NCBI RefSeq assembly: GCF_002240415.1
Contig: NZ_CP020028.1
Span: forward strand, 2,939,501 to 3,003,500
DNA length: 64,000 nucleotides
Direction of reading: 5' to 3'
Source of the DNA: Paenibacillus kribbensis
GTDB taxonomy: Bacteria; Bacillota; Bacilli; Paenibacillales; Paenibacillaceae
In this document: positions 47,231 to 51,263 of the stretch, one piece after another
Layout: every line of letters begins with the position of its first letter
Numbering within the stretch: the first letter of the stretch is position 1
The notes under the pieces: model-generated
What the model was told of the DNA's origin: nothing
What the model saw: only the letters and a program-made list of their open reading frames with translations
The model's database searches: none
Translations under genes and position numbers: made by a program

Positions 47231-47923
47231 TCATTTCAATTTAGAAAGAAGAACTTCCAGTTCCCCCCTGTCCAAATGTCTCCATTGTCCCCGTTCCAGA
47301 TGATCCAAGGTAATATTCATAATTCGGACACGCTCCAGCTTTAGCACTCTGTATCCCAGAGCCTTGCACATTCTGCGAATTTGCAGATTCAACCCCTGCG
47401 TCAAAATAATTCGGAACTCGAACTCGCTTGTACGATCAACCTTGCACGGTTTGGTAATGACGTTCAATATTTCAACGCCGCGAGACATGGCCTGCGTAAA
47501 TTCATCTGTAACAGGCTTATCTACAGTCACCACATATTCCTTCTCATGACCATGCTCGGAACGCATCATTTGATTGACAATGCTTCCATCGTTCGTTAAT
47601 AAAATGAGCCCCTCTGACGCTTTATCCAGCCTGCCAATGGCGAAAATGCGTGAAGGATAATTGACATAACTAATAATATTGCCAGCCACCTCCTCCGCTG
47701 CCGTACATACAATGCCGACAGGCTTATTTAGCGCCAAGTATACGGGTTCACTACGGTTAATCGGAATAGCTTTCCCATCGATCAGCACGATATCCTGTGG
47801 CTCTACATGAGCCCCTGCTTCACAAACTGTGCCGTTAATCGTAATTCTCCCCGCAGCAATCAATCTGTTCGTTTCCCGACGGGAGCAGAATCCCGTTTCG
47901 CTTATGAACTTGTTAATTCGCAT
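47231..47923 (-). CDS. rluF: 23S rRNA pseudouridine synthase, RluF type
   Basis: 230 residues, ATG 47923 with AGGTGA. An S4 RNA-binding domain (about 1-50) is followed by an RsuA-like synthase domain with the catalytic Asp100 in IGRLDKASEGL. The C-terminal GLNLQIRRMCKALGYRVLKLERVRIMNI is the RluF-specific form of the RsuA/RluB/RluE/RluF motif. RluF isomerises U2604 (E. coli numbering) of 23S rRNA. A single-gene unit. Confidence 0.93.
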   Translation of the reverse strand: MRINKFISETGFCSRRETNRLIAAGRITINGTVCEAGAHVEPQDIVLIDGKAIPINRSEPVYLALNKPVGIVCTAAEEVAGNIISYVNYPSRIFAIGRLDKASEGLILLTNDGSIVNQMMRSEHGHEKEYVVTVDKPVTDEFTQAMSRGVEILNVITKPCKVDRTSEFEFRIILTQGLNLQIRRMCKALGYRVLKLERVRIMNITLDHLERGQWRHLDRGELEVLLSKLK

Positions 47924-48984: not shown

Positions 48985-50790
48985 TCAATCGTTTCCTATA
49001 TTGATATCCAAAATAGAATTAAATACTTCCTGCGGCAGTTGGATGTTCATATGTTCCATATTTCGTTTATTTATATTTTGTCTGTGCAGCAGTGCCTGCT
49101 TTTTTGAAATGCTTTTTTTATCGCCACTGACTGCCGCATTTTTACGCAATGGAGGAACATCTTCTCTGGCAATCACGATGCCTTCCACTACCACCTGCAC
49201 AGGCATAGGATAGAGTTTTCTTGGAATCGTATGCTTTAATTTCATTACCAGATCTGCAGCAACACGATAAGCATCTTCCCGGTGTAATATAAACGCCAAG
49301 GCGTCTATCTTAACATAATTCACGAGGATATCCATTTTAACCAGATCAGCTTCACGATAGTCCATAAATTGTACATCCATCGTGGCATAACCGTGCGATA
49401 GGGATTTTAATTGATTAAAAAAATGATACGCAATTTCTGAAGTTGGTATCTCATAGTGCAAGATGGTTTGGTTCACCTGATAATTCAAATCAATAAAAAT
49501 CCCTTTTCGACTTGTAGCCAGCTTCATGATATCGCCTACATGCTCTTCTGGCAAAGTGATCGTCACAACCCCATAAGGTTCCTTCACTGTTTTTATCTTA
49601 TCAAAGGTCGGATAATAGACCGGGTTATTTATCCGTAGCTCCTGACCGTCTTTGGTTAAAACTTGATAGGTGACATTGGGGGCAGTTATGAGTACAGTCA
49701 AACCATATTCTTTTTCCAAACGTTCTCGAATGATTTGTAAATGCAGCATTCCTAAAAAGCCACACCGAAAGCCCTTCCCTAACACCTCAGAGCGTTCTTC
49801 CTCATAGCAGAAGGATGAATCATTTAAAGCAAGTCTATGAATCGCATTTTGAAAGTCTTTATCATTGTCATCACTTGGAAACAAGCCTGCATATACCATT
49901 GATTTGGATTCCTTGTAGCCGGGTAACGGCTGTTGGCTTGGATCAGTTGTGGTTGTTAAGGTATCTCCAATCTTTACTTTTTGCACTTCCTTCAGTCCGG
50001 TAACTACATAACCAACTTCACCTGCCCGGAGAACATCAGTTGGCTGCATGTGGGGTAAAAACACCCCCAGTTCCGTTGCATTGAATTCTGCTTGCGTCAC
50101 CATAAAACGAAGGGTCTTATCCTTGCTTAGTGTTCCTTCGAACAAACGAAGATAAGCGATGACTCCTCTGAACGGATCATACTGCAAGTCGAAAACCAAT
50201 GCTTTTAAAGGACTGTCTGCTGTACCTGTAGGTGCCGGGATAACCGAGTGAATACGCTCCAGCACTTTATCAACGCCCTGACCGGTCTTTGCAGATATAT
50301 ATAGAATGTCTTCTTCATTAAACTGCATCACGTCGATCAACTGCTGGCAAGTTTGCTCTATATTAGCATTAAAGCTGTCGATTTTATTAACCACAGGTAT
50401 AATGACCAGTTCGTTTTCCATCGCTATGTTGTAATTGGCAATGGTTTGAGCCTGAACACCTTGCGTGGCATCTACTATCAATAGGACGCCTTCACATGCA
50501 GCCAAGCTTTTCGAAACTTCATACGAAAAATCAACATGTCCCGGCGTATCAATCAAATTATACTGATATTTATGTCCATTCTTTGCTTCATAAAAGGTAC
50601 GCACTGTACGCGATTTCACTGTAATTCCATGCTCTCGCTCAACATCCATGGAATCCAGCAGCTGTTCCTTCATATCTCTCTTCGAAACAGTTAGAGTCTT
50701 CTCTATAATCCGGTCCGCCAATGTCGATTTCCCATGATCAATATGCGCGATGATCGAAAAATTTCGTATATTTTTGGATTGAATTTTCAT
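48985..50790 (-). CDS. Divergent LepA / elongation factor 4 paralogue
   Basis: 601 residues, ATG 50790, ribosome site AGAGGAG 10 nt upstream. Full LepA architecture: GTPase (IIAHIDHGKSTLADR, DTPGHVDFSYEV, NKID), domains II, III, V and the LepA-specific C-terminal domain (YPMPVQVVVEGIVIAREDVPPLRKNAA). Many positions invariant in housekeeping LepA differ: switch I reads EREHGITVKSRTVRTF, and the usual [22 protein letters not shown] tail is replaced by a diverged SGDKKSISKKQALLHRQN. The gene is not in the hemN-hrcA-dnaK neighbourhood where Firmicutes keep lepA. It is preceded by a leader peptide and attenuator hairpins. I infer a specialised, inducible EF-4 acting on stressed or antibiotic-bound ribosomes. 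Confidence 0.88.
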   Translation of the reverse strand: MKIQSKNIRNFSIIAHIDHGKSTLADRIIEKTLTVSKRDMKEQLLDSMDVEREHGITVKSRTVRTFYEAKNGHKYQYNLIDTPGHVDFSYEVSKSLAACEGVLLIVDATQGVQAQTIANYNIAMENELVIIPVVNKIDSFNANIEQTCQQLIDVMQFNEEDILYISAKTGQGVDKVLERIHSVIPAPTGTADSPLKALVFDLQYDPFRGVIAYLRLFEGTLSKDKTLRFMVTQAEFNATELGVFLPHMQPTDVLRAGEVGYVVTGLKEVQKVKIGDTLTTTTDPSQQPLPGYKESKSMVYAGLFPSDDNDKDFQNAIHRLALNDSSFCYEEERSEVLGKGFRCGFLGMLHLQIIRERLEKEYGLTVLITAPNVTYQVLTKDGQELRINNPVYYPTFDKIKTVKEPYGVVTITLPEEHVGDIMKLATSRKGIFIDLNYQVNQTILHYEIPTSEIAYHFFNQLKSLSHGYATMDVQFMDYREADLVKMDILVNYVKIDALAFILHREDAYRVAADLVMKLKHTIPRKLYPMPVQVVVEGIVIAREDVPPLRKNAAVSGDKKSISKKQALLHRQNINKRNMEHMNIQLPQEVFNSILDINIGND

Positions 50791-50800
50791 TTTTATAAAA

Positions 50801-50863
50801 CTCCTCTAATTTGTATTATTCAAATAATTAGAGGATTGTTGCAATCCTCTAATAGGATGCAAC
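50801..50863 (-). promoter_or_regulatory. Translational attenuator hiding the lepA-like ribosome site
   Basis: On the minus strand four segments can pair alternately. R1 (50863-50854) lies inside the leader ORF; R2 (50852-50838) is complementary to R1 with one bulge; R3 (50838-50826) forms an 11-bp perfect stem with R2; R4 (50811-50803, AATTAGAGG) overlaps the ribosome site and pairs over 9 bp with R3. R1:R2 plus R3:R4 would mask the site. A ribosome paused over R1 would let R2 pair with R3 and free it. Confidence 0.8.
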
Positions 50864-50899
50864 ACCAATGGTTAATACGATTAAAGTAGGAAAATACAT
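50849..50899 (-). CDS. Leader peptide MYFPTLIVLTIGVASY
   Basis: 16 codons from ATG 50899 to TAG at 50849, with AGGGAGTG 6 nt upstream, a better ribosome site than that of the LepA-like gene. It ends 58 bases before the lepA-like start codon. Residues 6-9 (LIVL) occupy the same positions as the IFVI stalling motif of ErmCL, which pauses with codon 9 in the P site under macrolides. The 3' half of the ORF is segment R1 of the attenuator. The peptide itself probably has no function beyond being translated. Confidence 0.75.
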   Translation of the reverse strand: MYFPTLIVLTIGVASY

Positions 50900-50949
50900 T
50901 TGTTTCACTCCCTTATTTTCTGTAAAACAATATATTTATTTTATTTCAC

Positions 50950-50978
50950 ATTTTAGTATAGTCATAAATCTTTGTCTA
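50950..50978 (-). promoter_or_regulatory. Promoter of the leader / lepA-like transcript
   Basis: TAGACA (50978-50973), exactly 17 bp, TAAAAT (50955-50950): each hexamer matches 5 of 6. Transcription would start near 50943, leaving about 44 bases before the leader ATG. Confidence 0.75.
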
Positions 50979-51263
50979 TTAGCATGAATTCGAAGCGCAG
51001 TTATAAGCGATAATGCGCTTCGCAACCCCCGTTAAAATCAAGCCCGTTGGCGAAATATCTATCCCTCGTCTATACGCGAACAAAAAAATCAAAAATGCTG
51101 CGGTAAGACCACTTGCAAAAGCCAAATCCGGAAGAATAATAGGTGTTGCAATAAGAAGTGAAATTCTTTTTTTACCAACCATTAACAATTATTTATCTAG
51201 CCAACGATAATAGGATTAGAGGGGATTCTCCCTTCGATATCTCAAACTGGAGGAGATAAATAA
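50979..51263. other. Intergenic region left of the exported protein gene
   Basis: About 285 bases between divergent genes. A 69-codon minus-strand frame and a 65-codon plus-strand frame overlap here; neither has a ribosome site. The plus-strand gene at 51264 must be served from here, but no clear promoter is seen. Confidence 0.4.

Follow-up and report, generated by a model that had tools for sequence, protein, structure and literature searches.

A probable translational attenuator in front of lepA2, a second EF-4 gene of Paenibacillus kribbensis

In the window, by which we mean the whole stretch of 64,000 nucleotides of Paenibacillus kribbensis DNA analysed here, a gene for a divergent relative of the translation factor EF-4 (LepA) lies on the minus strand behind a short leader ORF, and four RNA arms (R1 to R4) extend from the end of the leader to the ribosome site of this gene. 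The divergent EF-4 subfamily to which the product belongs is named LepA2 in this report. The features of the locus, each with its evidence in brackets, are as follows.

48985..50790, minus strand: lepA2, an EF-4/LepA paralogue of 601 aa (TIGR01393, PF06421, tree)
50849..50899, minus strand: leader ORF MYFPTLIVLTIGVASY, 16 codons and TAG (sequence)
50864..50869, minus strand: codons Ile11-Gly12, the V/I-Gly common to the leaders (comparison of 21 leaders)
50854..50864, minus strand: R1, ending 15 nt past the first nt of the Ile11 codon (helix-chain search)
50837..50853, minus strand: R2, pairing with R1 via 50848-50837 and with R3 via 50853-50842 (helix-chain search)
50826..50838, minus strand: R3, pairing with R2 via 50838-50827 and with R4 via 50835-50826 (helix-chain search)
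50802..50811, minus strand: R4, over most of the ribosome-binding site (helix-chain search; closed in the MFE fold)
50801..50807, minus strand: Shine-Dalgarno (SD) AGAGGAG of lepA2, into which R4 runs (sequence)
50950..50978, minus strand: promoter-like site TAGACA-17-TAAAAT, 10/12 match (consensus scan only)

On the minus strand the leader begins with ATG at 50899-50897 and its TAG ends at 50849, a GGGAG ribosome site lies upstream of the ATG, and a gap of 58 bases separates the leader end from the lepA2 ATG (50790); the first-pass annotation, which had described a 16-codon leader with a ribosome site 58 bases before a lepA-like start, is thus confirmed from the sequence. Its four segments, said to pair as R1:R2 plus R3:R4 or as R2:R3 with R4 over the SD, were found again by the helix-chain search, namely R1:R2 as UGUUGCAUCCU:AGGAUUGCAACA with one 1-nt bulge, R2:R3 as AUUAGAGGAUUG:CAAUCCUCUAAU and R3:R4 as UCCUCUAAUU:AAUUAGAGGA, and the chain has a summed stacking of -53.9 kcal/mol that was matched by none of 500 dinucleotide shuffles (best shuffle -34.5). 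The R2:R3 stem, given earlier as a perfect stem of 11 bp, is present with a length of 12 bp. Moreover, the MFE fold of the leader RNA consists of R1:R2 and R3:R4 with the SD closed (-27.7, z -2.8, 3 of 200 shuffles equally low). The promoter-like site lies 50 bases upstream of the leader, in a scan over 501 bases that gave 5 such sites against 2.4 in shuffles. A scan of 50700-51200 for terminator-like sites gave none at R3:R4 and a single one at 51112-51100. The Rfam search had no match over the leader; a sub-threshold match to STnc550 at 51086-51167 on the minus strand (25.8 bits against a gathering threshold of 48) is probably due to chance. Downstream of lepA2, at 47231-47923 on the minus strand, lies a gene that by eye resembles RsuA/RluF-type pseudouridine synthases.

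The lepA2 product scores 757 bits against TIGR01393 (cut-off 533.9) and 82.8 bits against PF06421, LepA_C (cut-off 29.7). A tetracycline ribosomal protection protein was considered and rejected, as the score for NCBIfam tet_protect is 158.5 with a cut-off of 775. A canonical LepA orthologue was also rejected: the protein falls in a separate tree group, it is without the YGGD tail, and the canonical copy is encoded elsewhere in the genome, so that the earlier view of this EF-4 as a paralogue is borne out by genome, tree and family search together. The LepA C-terminal family has three matches in the genome (5.78 Mb, one contig), which are canonical LepA and two paralogues; of the matches that the family search listed outside this genome, the closest is 49% identical. 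LepA2 is split from canonical LepA with support 100 in a tree that holds 12 canonical rows, all from Paenibacillaceae, and that came with a warning of long branches. In the C-terminal tail, YGGD is present in all 31 canonical LepA compared, which are from Paenibacillaceae, and in none of 109 LepA2, while PPLRK[N/S] is present in 94 of the 109 LepA2 and in none of the 31; the solved LepA sequence 2ywe also has YGGD in the alignment. According to the sections at hand of a review by De Laurentiis and Wieden (PMC4339808), the C-terminal domain of EF-4 reaches the peptidyl transferase centre, and its last 44 residues, attached through a conserved Gly-Gly linker, are important for the GTPase activity that depends on the ribosome. 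Taken with this position of the domain, the differences in tail motifs suggest that the region of EF-4 lying close to the catalytic centre has changed in LepA2. Both the GTPase motifs and the catalytic His have been retained, H85 being invariant in 39 aligned LepA2-type proteins.

The second EF-4 paralogue of this genome lies about 314 kb away and is 75% identical to the first. Its leader, MYFPTLIILTVGVASY, shows 4 synonymous codon changes and 2 V/I swaps against that of the window as judged by eye, and it too is followed by four arms, whose chain reaches -55.6 with 0 of 500 shuffles as good. When the two copies are compared, the last pair of R3:R4 is U-A in one and A-U in the other with the pairing kept, and one pair of R1:R2 changes from U-A to U-G. 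The sequence 3' of R4 in the second copy reads GTAATATAA, without a T run. A genome search confined the leader pattern to these two places, before both paralogues. A DNA search of 74 further genomes from the genus found the leader in one (G321, locus L117), where it reads MYFPTLIVLTIGVAS; at this locus the leader is intact and the lepA2 behind it has been reduced to remnants by deletions, which is a case of gene loss. Public databases hold LepA2 proteins from other Paenibacillus, one labelled P. peoriae and 96% identical, another from Paenibacillus sp. IHBB 3054.

Across the subfamily, 152 LepA2 loci with a usable start gave 107 distinct upstreams, after 7 loci without a usable start had been dropped and with 45 identical upstreams set aside. 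A TetR-type gene precedes LepA2 in 61 of these and a short leader in 21, including the window and the second copy, and in 25 neither was found. Conservation of leader and stems before homologous genes, a point raised by the first-pass annotation, therefore holds for the second copy and for the leader in 21 of the 107 distinct upstreams, and the other 86 are without such a leader. The TetR-type calls were made by sequence motif, with Pfam TetR_N (PF00440) above cut-off in the four cases out of four tested. In most lactic acid bacterial LepA2 loci (L036-L115, e.g. L036, L069, L074, L107) the TetR-type gene overlaps LepA2 or is separated from it by a few bases. Such a neighbour suggests a second, transcriptional way of inducing LepA2.

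Twenty of the 21 leaders, with 18 distinct peptides, fit the motif [IV]-x-[LTF]-[VI]-G, a conservation that is overstated to an unknown degree because the leaders were gathered by a search requiring Gly or Arg after V/I/F/L; in the exception, L100, Arg replaces Gly. Besides those of the window and the second copy, the leader peptides are the following.

Fructobacillus and near kin: MPIQLIGLPF, MPIQLVGISF, MTIQLVGFSF, MTIQLVGIAF, MAILLVGSQF, MTIILVG
Lactobacillus sp. Sy-1 and Nicoliella plasmid: MNVIMLVGLSF, MSQIMLVGLSF
Leuconostoc plasmid type: MNRILLVGLIVV
Further LepA2 leaders: MNKKILLVGTK, MINREILLVRIN, MDHIILLIGR, MSTEILFIGTPAL, MSTEILFIGTPAR, MIMLVGYVL, MIMLVGGVR

The motif was first spotted by eye in unselected upstreams, and with regexes written after the leaders had been seen, a fixed one finds a motif leader in 17 of the 107 upstreams against 0.41 expected from shuffles, the hits falling in 17/21 leader types, 0/61 TetR types and 0/25 others; in 29 canonical lepA upstreams there is no such leader. 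The leader codons vary, with four Gly codons and one AGA as well as four V/I codons in use, which means that the peptide is kept and not the bases. Of the 16 leader types from lactic acid bacteria that were placed in the tree, 15 fall into a single clade (support 98) far from the Paenibacillus pair, and hence the leader is either old or arose twice; in L219, the lactic acid bacterial row nearest to Paenibacillus by path, neither leader nor TetR-type gene was found. A degenerate leader pattern, by which several of the known LepA2 leaders are missed, had matches in 108 of 397 genomes with more than 100 places listed, and many of its matches look like starts of ordinary genes. Among 50 of these loci examined (30 + 20, with at least one place taken twice), the motif occurs in ORFs no longer than 30 codons at seven LepA2 loci and three other places. 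The motif also bears on the alignment with ErmCL made in the first-pass annotation, which had set leader residues 6-9 in register with IFVI (6-9): LIVL is indeed present, but the register does not hold, as the V/I codon of the motif ranges from codon 5 to codon 11 across the 21 leaders. For this reason the match of codons 6-9 to IFVI is best read, from these sequences, as a coincidence.

As for the stems, a chain with R4 on the SD at p<=0.02 is found in 13 of 21 leader types, some of these 13 being near copies and not independent, in 5 of 61 TetR types, in 0 of 24 others and in 2 of 29 canonical upstreams (200 shuffles each; L060, one of the others, with fewer than 110 bases upstream, was left out). 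The remaining 8 of 21 leader types are without a significant chain, and 6 of these are without any chain under the rules used. In nine R1:R2 arms three pairs are changed on both sides, in an imperfect alignment where shifting by one column gives almost as much pairing. The covariation analysis suggested earlier gave a weak and divided answer for these nine arms: the percentage paired was equalled in only 4 of 500 shuffles, and the number of covarying pairs in 178 of 500, the latter result being partly due to misalignment. The evidence for the stems is that of the per-sequence shuffles and of the paralogue pair, and not formal covariation.

The position of R1 relative to the motif can be described for 17 leaders, with R1 hand-picked from the helices and L086, L094, L100 and L113 left out for want of a clear R1. 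Counted from the first base of the V/I codon, its 3' end follows at 12-16 nt (mean 14.3, sd 1.5), a regularity which arises in part because R1 lies near the leader end and the tails are short (sd 2.6 from the last sense base), and its end lies 25-46 nt from the ATG (sd 5.5). This spacing implies that R1 is just covered when the V/I codon occupies the P site of a ribosome and the Gly codon its A site. In a stall model, where the RNA is masked up to the ribosome edge and SD access is taken from the partition function, the SD opens only for P-site codons 9-12 in the window and 8-12 in the second copy, while stalls at earlier codons or at the last ones leave it shut. A pause at codon 9, which had been predicted to reach into R1, does open the SD in the model (0.46 against 0.00 unstalled); it is not singular, since codons 10 and 11 open it as well and codon 12 does so in part (0.48, 0.49 and 0.23). 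A stall at the motif codon raises SD access in 18 of the 21 leaders, in 5 of them by at most 0.1, and lowers it in three (L042, L086 and L113). In its geometry a stop at codon 9 is in keeping with the model, but the register with ErmCL is not conserved, and Ile11-Gly12 is taken to be the likelier stop position.

The distribution of LepA2 is sporadic and mobile, as would be expected of a resistance factor of the HflXr or ARE kind. All 18 genomes with LepA2 that were checked encode canonical LepA as well. LepA2 was found in none of a further 294 genomes of Paenibacillaceae, no match among those listed exceeding 49% identity, and each of these genomes has one LepA-family match apart from one incomplete genome with two weaker ones; a draw of 397 other genomes from the class likewise gave no LepA2. 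Within the Fructobacillus family, 90 of 397 genomes have a match, including a divergent sister set of 13. In this set (13 tree rows, L223-L234 and L236) the C-terminal match is shorter, and the search for a leader or a TetR-type gene before its members gave nothing; one genome, G861, has both a sister-type LepA2 (L234) and a leader-type LepA2 (L235). A scan of collections kept 80 of 114 relatives, of which, by title, 78 are Lactobacillaceae, 1 is Streptococcus and 1 Bifidobacterium. Moreover, LepA2 at least 99% identical to one Leuconostoc copy is found on 14 Leuconostoc plasmid records, with the match in two pieces in 8 of the 14, and the three plasmids fetched from these are typed mobilizable and have the leader in every case. 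On the Leuconostoc kimchi plasmids (L127, L128 and L237; MOBT) LepA2 and its leader stand beside thioredoxin and HTH genes, and in L237 a heavy-metal P-type ATPase is also nearby. Among viral contigs 40 stretches matched a pattern and none encodes a relative, and in phage records there are 14 matches, all below 60% identity to Leuconostoc LepA2. The phage hits H61-H68 are LepA-like genes, among them ones in Microcystis phage and Acinetobacter phage records, and some may be host DNA. One candidate LepA2, in genome G339, turned out to be canonical LepA.

In ermC-type attenuators, such as that with the leader ErmCL, a short leader ORF is followed by four alternating arms of which the last covers the ribosome site, and a stall on the leader frees that site. 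This is the logic that the first-pass annotation had seen in the present leader, and the arm chain, the stall model and the MFE fold agree with it; from sequence and modelling, an erm-like switch is well supported. We consider it fairly probable that the leader is a translational attenuator which keeps the second EF-4, LepA2, off until ribosomes stall. With no stall, the ribosome would complete the leader peptide, R1:R2 and R3:R4 would form, and R4 would hide the lepA2 ribosome site. If a ribosome stopped with Gly12 in its A site and Ile11, which is Val in most relatives, in its P site, its leading edge would lie over R1; with R1 covered, R2:R3 would pair, R4 would be freed, and LepA2 could be made. 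The stall agent we infer to be a ribosome-targeting compound. LepA2, as an A-site GTPase with an altered C-terminal domain, would then enter the A site and clear or tolerate the jammed ribosome, a role suggested by analogy with HflXr and the ARE-ABCF factors. The TetR-type gene before most other LepA2 genes suggests another small-molecule switch, answering a chemical signal.

Within this attenuator reading, one candidate stall agent is a drug that acts with Gly in the A site. In 20 of the 21 leaders it is on taking exactly the first Gly codon into its A site that a ribosome would come to cover R1, a count inflated by the Gly/Arg-demanding search. The available text of PMC13410324 describes a pausing of ribosomes by bottromycin A2 that is confined to the entry of Gly into the A site, and bottromycin is a candidate inducer of this kind. 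Each leader might then serve as a codon-specific sensor for a drug by which the A site is blocked on entry of Gly, with LepA2 as a mobile inducible clearing factor. We hold this specific form to be doubtful: hydrophobic residues before Gly are also common to the leaders, whereas bottromycin is said to ignore the P- and E-site codons, and the shared hydrophobic stretch is thus somewhat against pure bottromycin sensing.

A stall could also come about with no drug at all, through a shortage of charged Leu, Ile or Val (or Gly) tRNA that would stop the ribosome in LIVLTIGV, and for such an amino-acid attenuator it can be said that the leaders are rich in branched-chain codons and that such codons are found among codons 9-12 (L, T, I, G), where a stall induces in the model. 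Classical starvation leaders, however, have long runs of the limiting codon, and the LepA2 leaders have few of them. At the second motif position Q, M, L and I all occur, whereas 20 of 21 leaders have retained Gly, although in a search-biased set, and this common Gly is somewhat against starvation sensing; the TetR-type genes before most other LepA2 genes suggest a chemical signal instead. Altogether we regard amino-acid shortage as an unlikely cause. Alternatively, the nascent I-x-L-V-G might itself slow the ribosome in some cell state, so that LepA2 would relieve its own leader. Such an arrest would suit the role in tRNA back-translocation proposed for EF-4 (PMC4339808, in the part at hand) and has a parallel in MsrD, which represses its own leader-controlled expression (PMC10314930, as excerpted). 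Yet the shortest leaders (MIMLVG...) have only 5 residues before Gly, which is little for an intrinsic arrest peptide, and a sporadic, plasmid-borne spread suits a resistance trait more than a housekeeping one, and we give self-sensing of this kind little credence. The same holds more strongly for transcription attenuation or simple translational coupling in place of SD masking, which we judge very improbable. Transcription is indeed the level at which many ARE-ABCF leaders work, their terminator hiding the SD as well (excerpts of PMC10201436 and PMC10314930), but here the scan gave no terminator-like site at R3:R4 and no T run follows R4 in the second copy, and coupling is opposed by the gap before the lepA2 ATG and by the SD modelled as closed after the last leader codons.

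The translational attenuator preferred here would join a regulatory device that is already known to a kind of target, an EF-4 subfamily, not yet described for it in the papers searched, with HflXr as the nearest precedent, and the LepA2 leaders look like an unrecognised ribosome-stress or antibiotic-response system. EF-4 is among the most conserved bacterial translation factors, with a role still open according to the available part of PMC4339808. If the leaders do sense Gly as described above, LepA2 would be the first EF-4 with a defined protective job. A compound that opens the leader would reveal the purpose of LepA2 and also what action on blocked ribosomes an EF-4 is capable of; LepA2 would be a further GTPase, after HflXr, among the stress or resistance factors controlled by leaders, and its leaders could serve directly as reporters for ribosome inhibitors of an unknown class. 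Literature searches limited to openly licensed papers found, in the text available from them, no EF-4/LepA under leader control, and the accessible text of a survey of translational GTPases (PMC4342817) has neither 'LepA2' nor 'LepA paralog'. A gene named lepA_2 in Lactiplantibacillus plantarum appears with its name and variant counts only in the portion at hand of PMC8953754; the L. plantarum locus L083, which lies in the LepA2 clade and may be this same gene, follows a TetR-type gene and is without a leader.

Among known systems, canonical EF-4/LepA has the domain order, GTPase motifs, catalytic His and LepA_C domain in common with LepA2, which in contrast is at most 49% identical to it among the matches listed, is without YGGD, is sporadic in its occurrence and appears to be switched. 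The ermC-type attenuator has the same logic of leader ORF, arms, last arm and stall as the lepA2 leader; the target is, however, an EF-4 paralogue and not a methyltransferase, and the leaders have V/I-Gly at a variable distance from Met and not IFVI at 6-9. Closest is HflXr with rli80 in Listeria, likewise a GTPase homologue acting on the ribosome under a leader-ORF attenuator, which, as far as the excerpts of PMC6310831 go, works by premature transcription termination with an RLR macrolide motif and for which resistance was demonstrated; the lepA2 switch, in contrast, looks translational and is without RLR. The ARE-ABCF genes with leaders, namely msrD (PMC10314930), vmlR (PMC9226507) and cplR (PMC10201436), are similar in that, by the available text of these papers, a stall on a uORF induces a factor for stalled ribosomes; they differ in encoding ATPases of another family under transcriptional or mixed attenuation, and their leaders MYLIFM, MIN and MRI, as given there, have no V/I-Gly unit.
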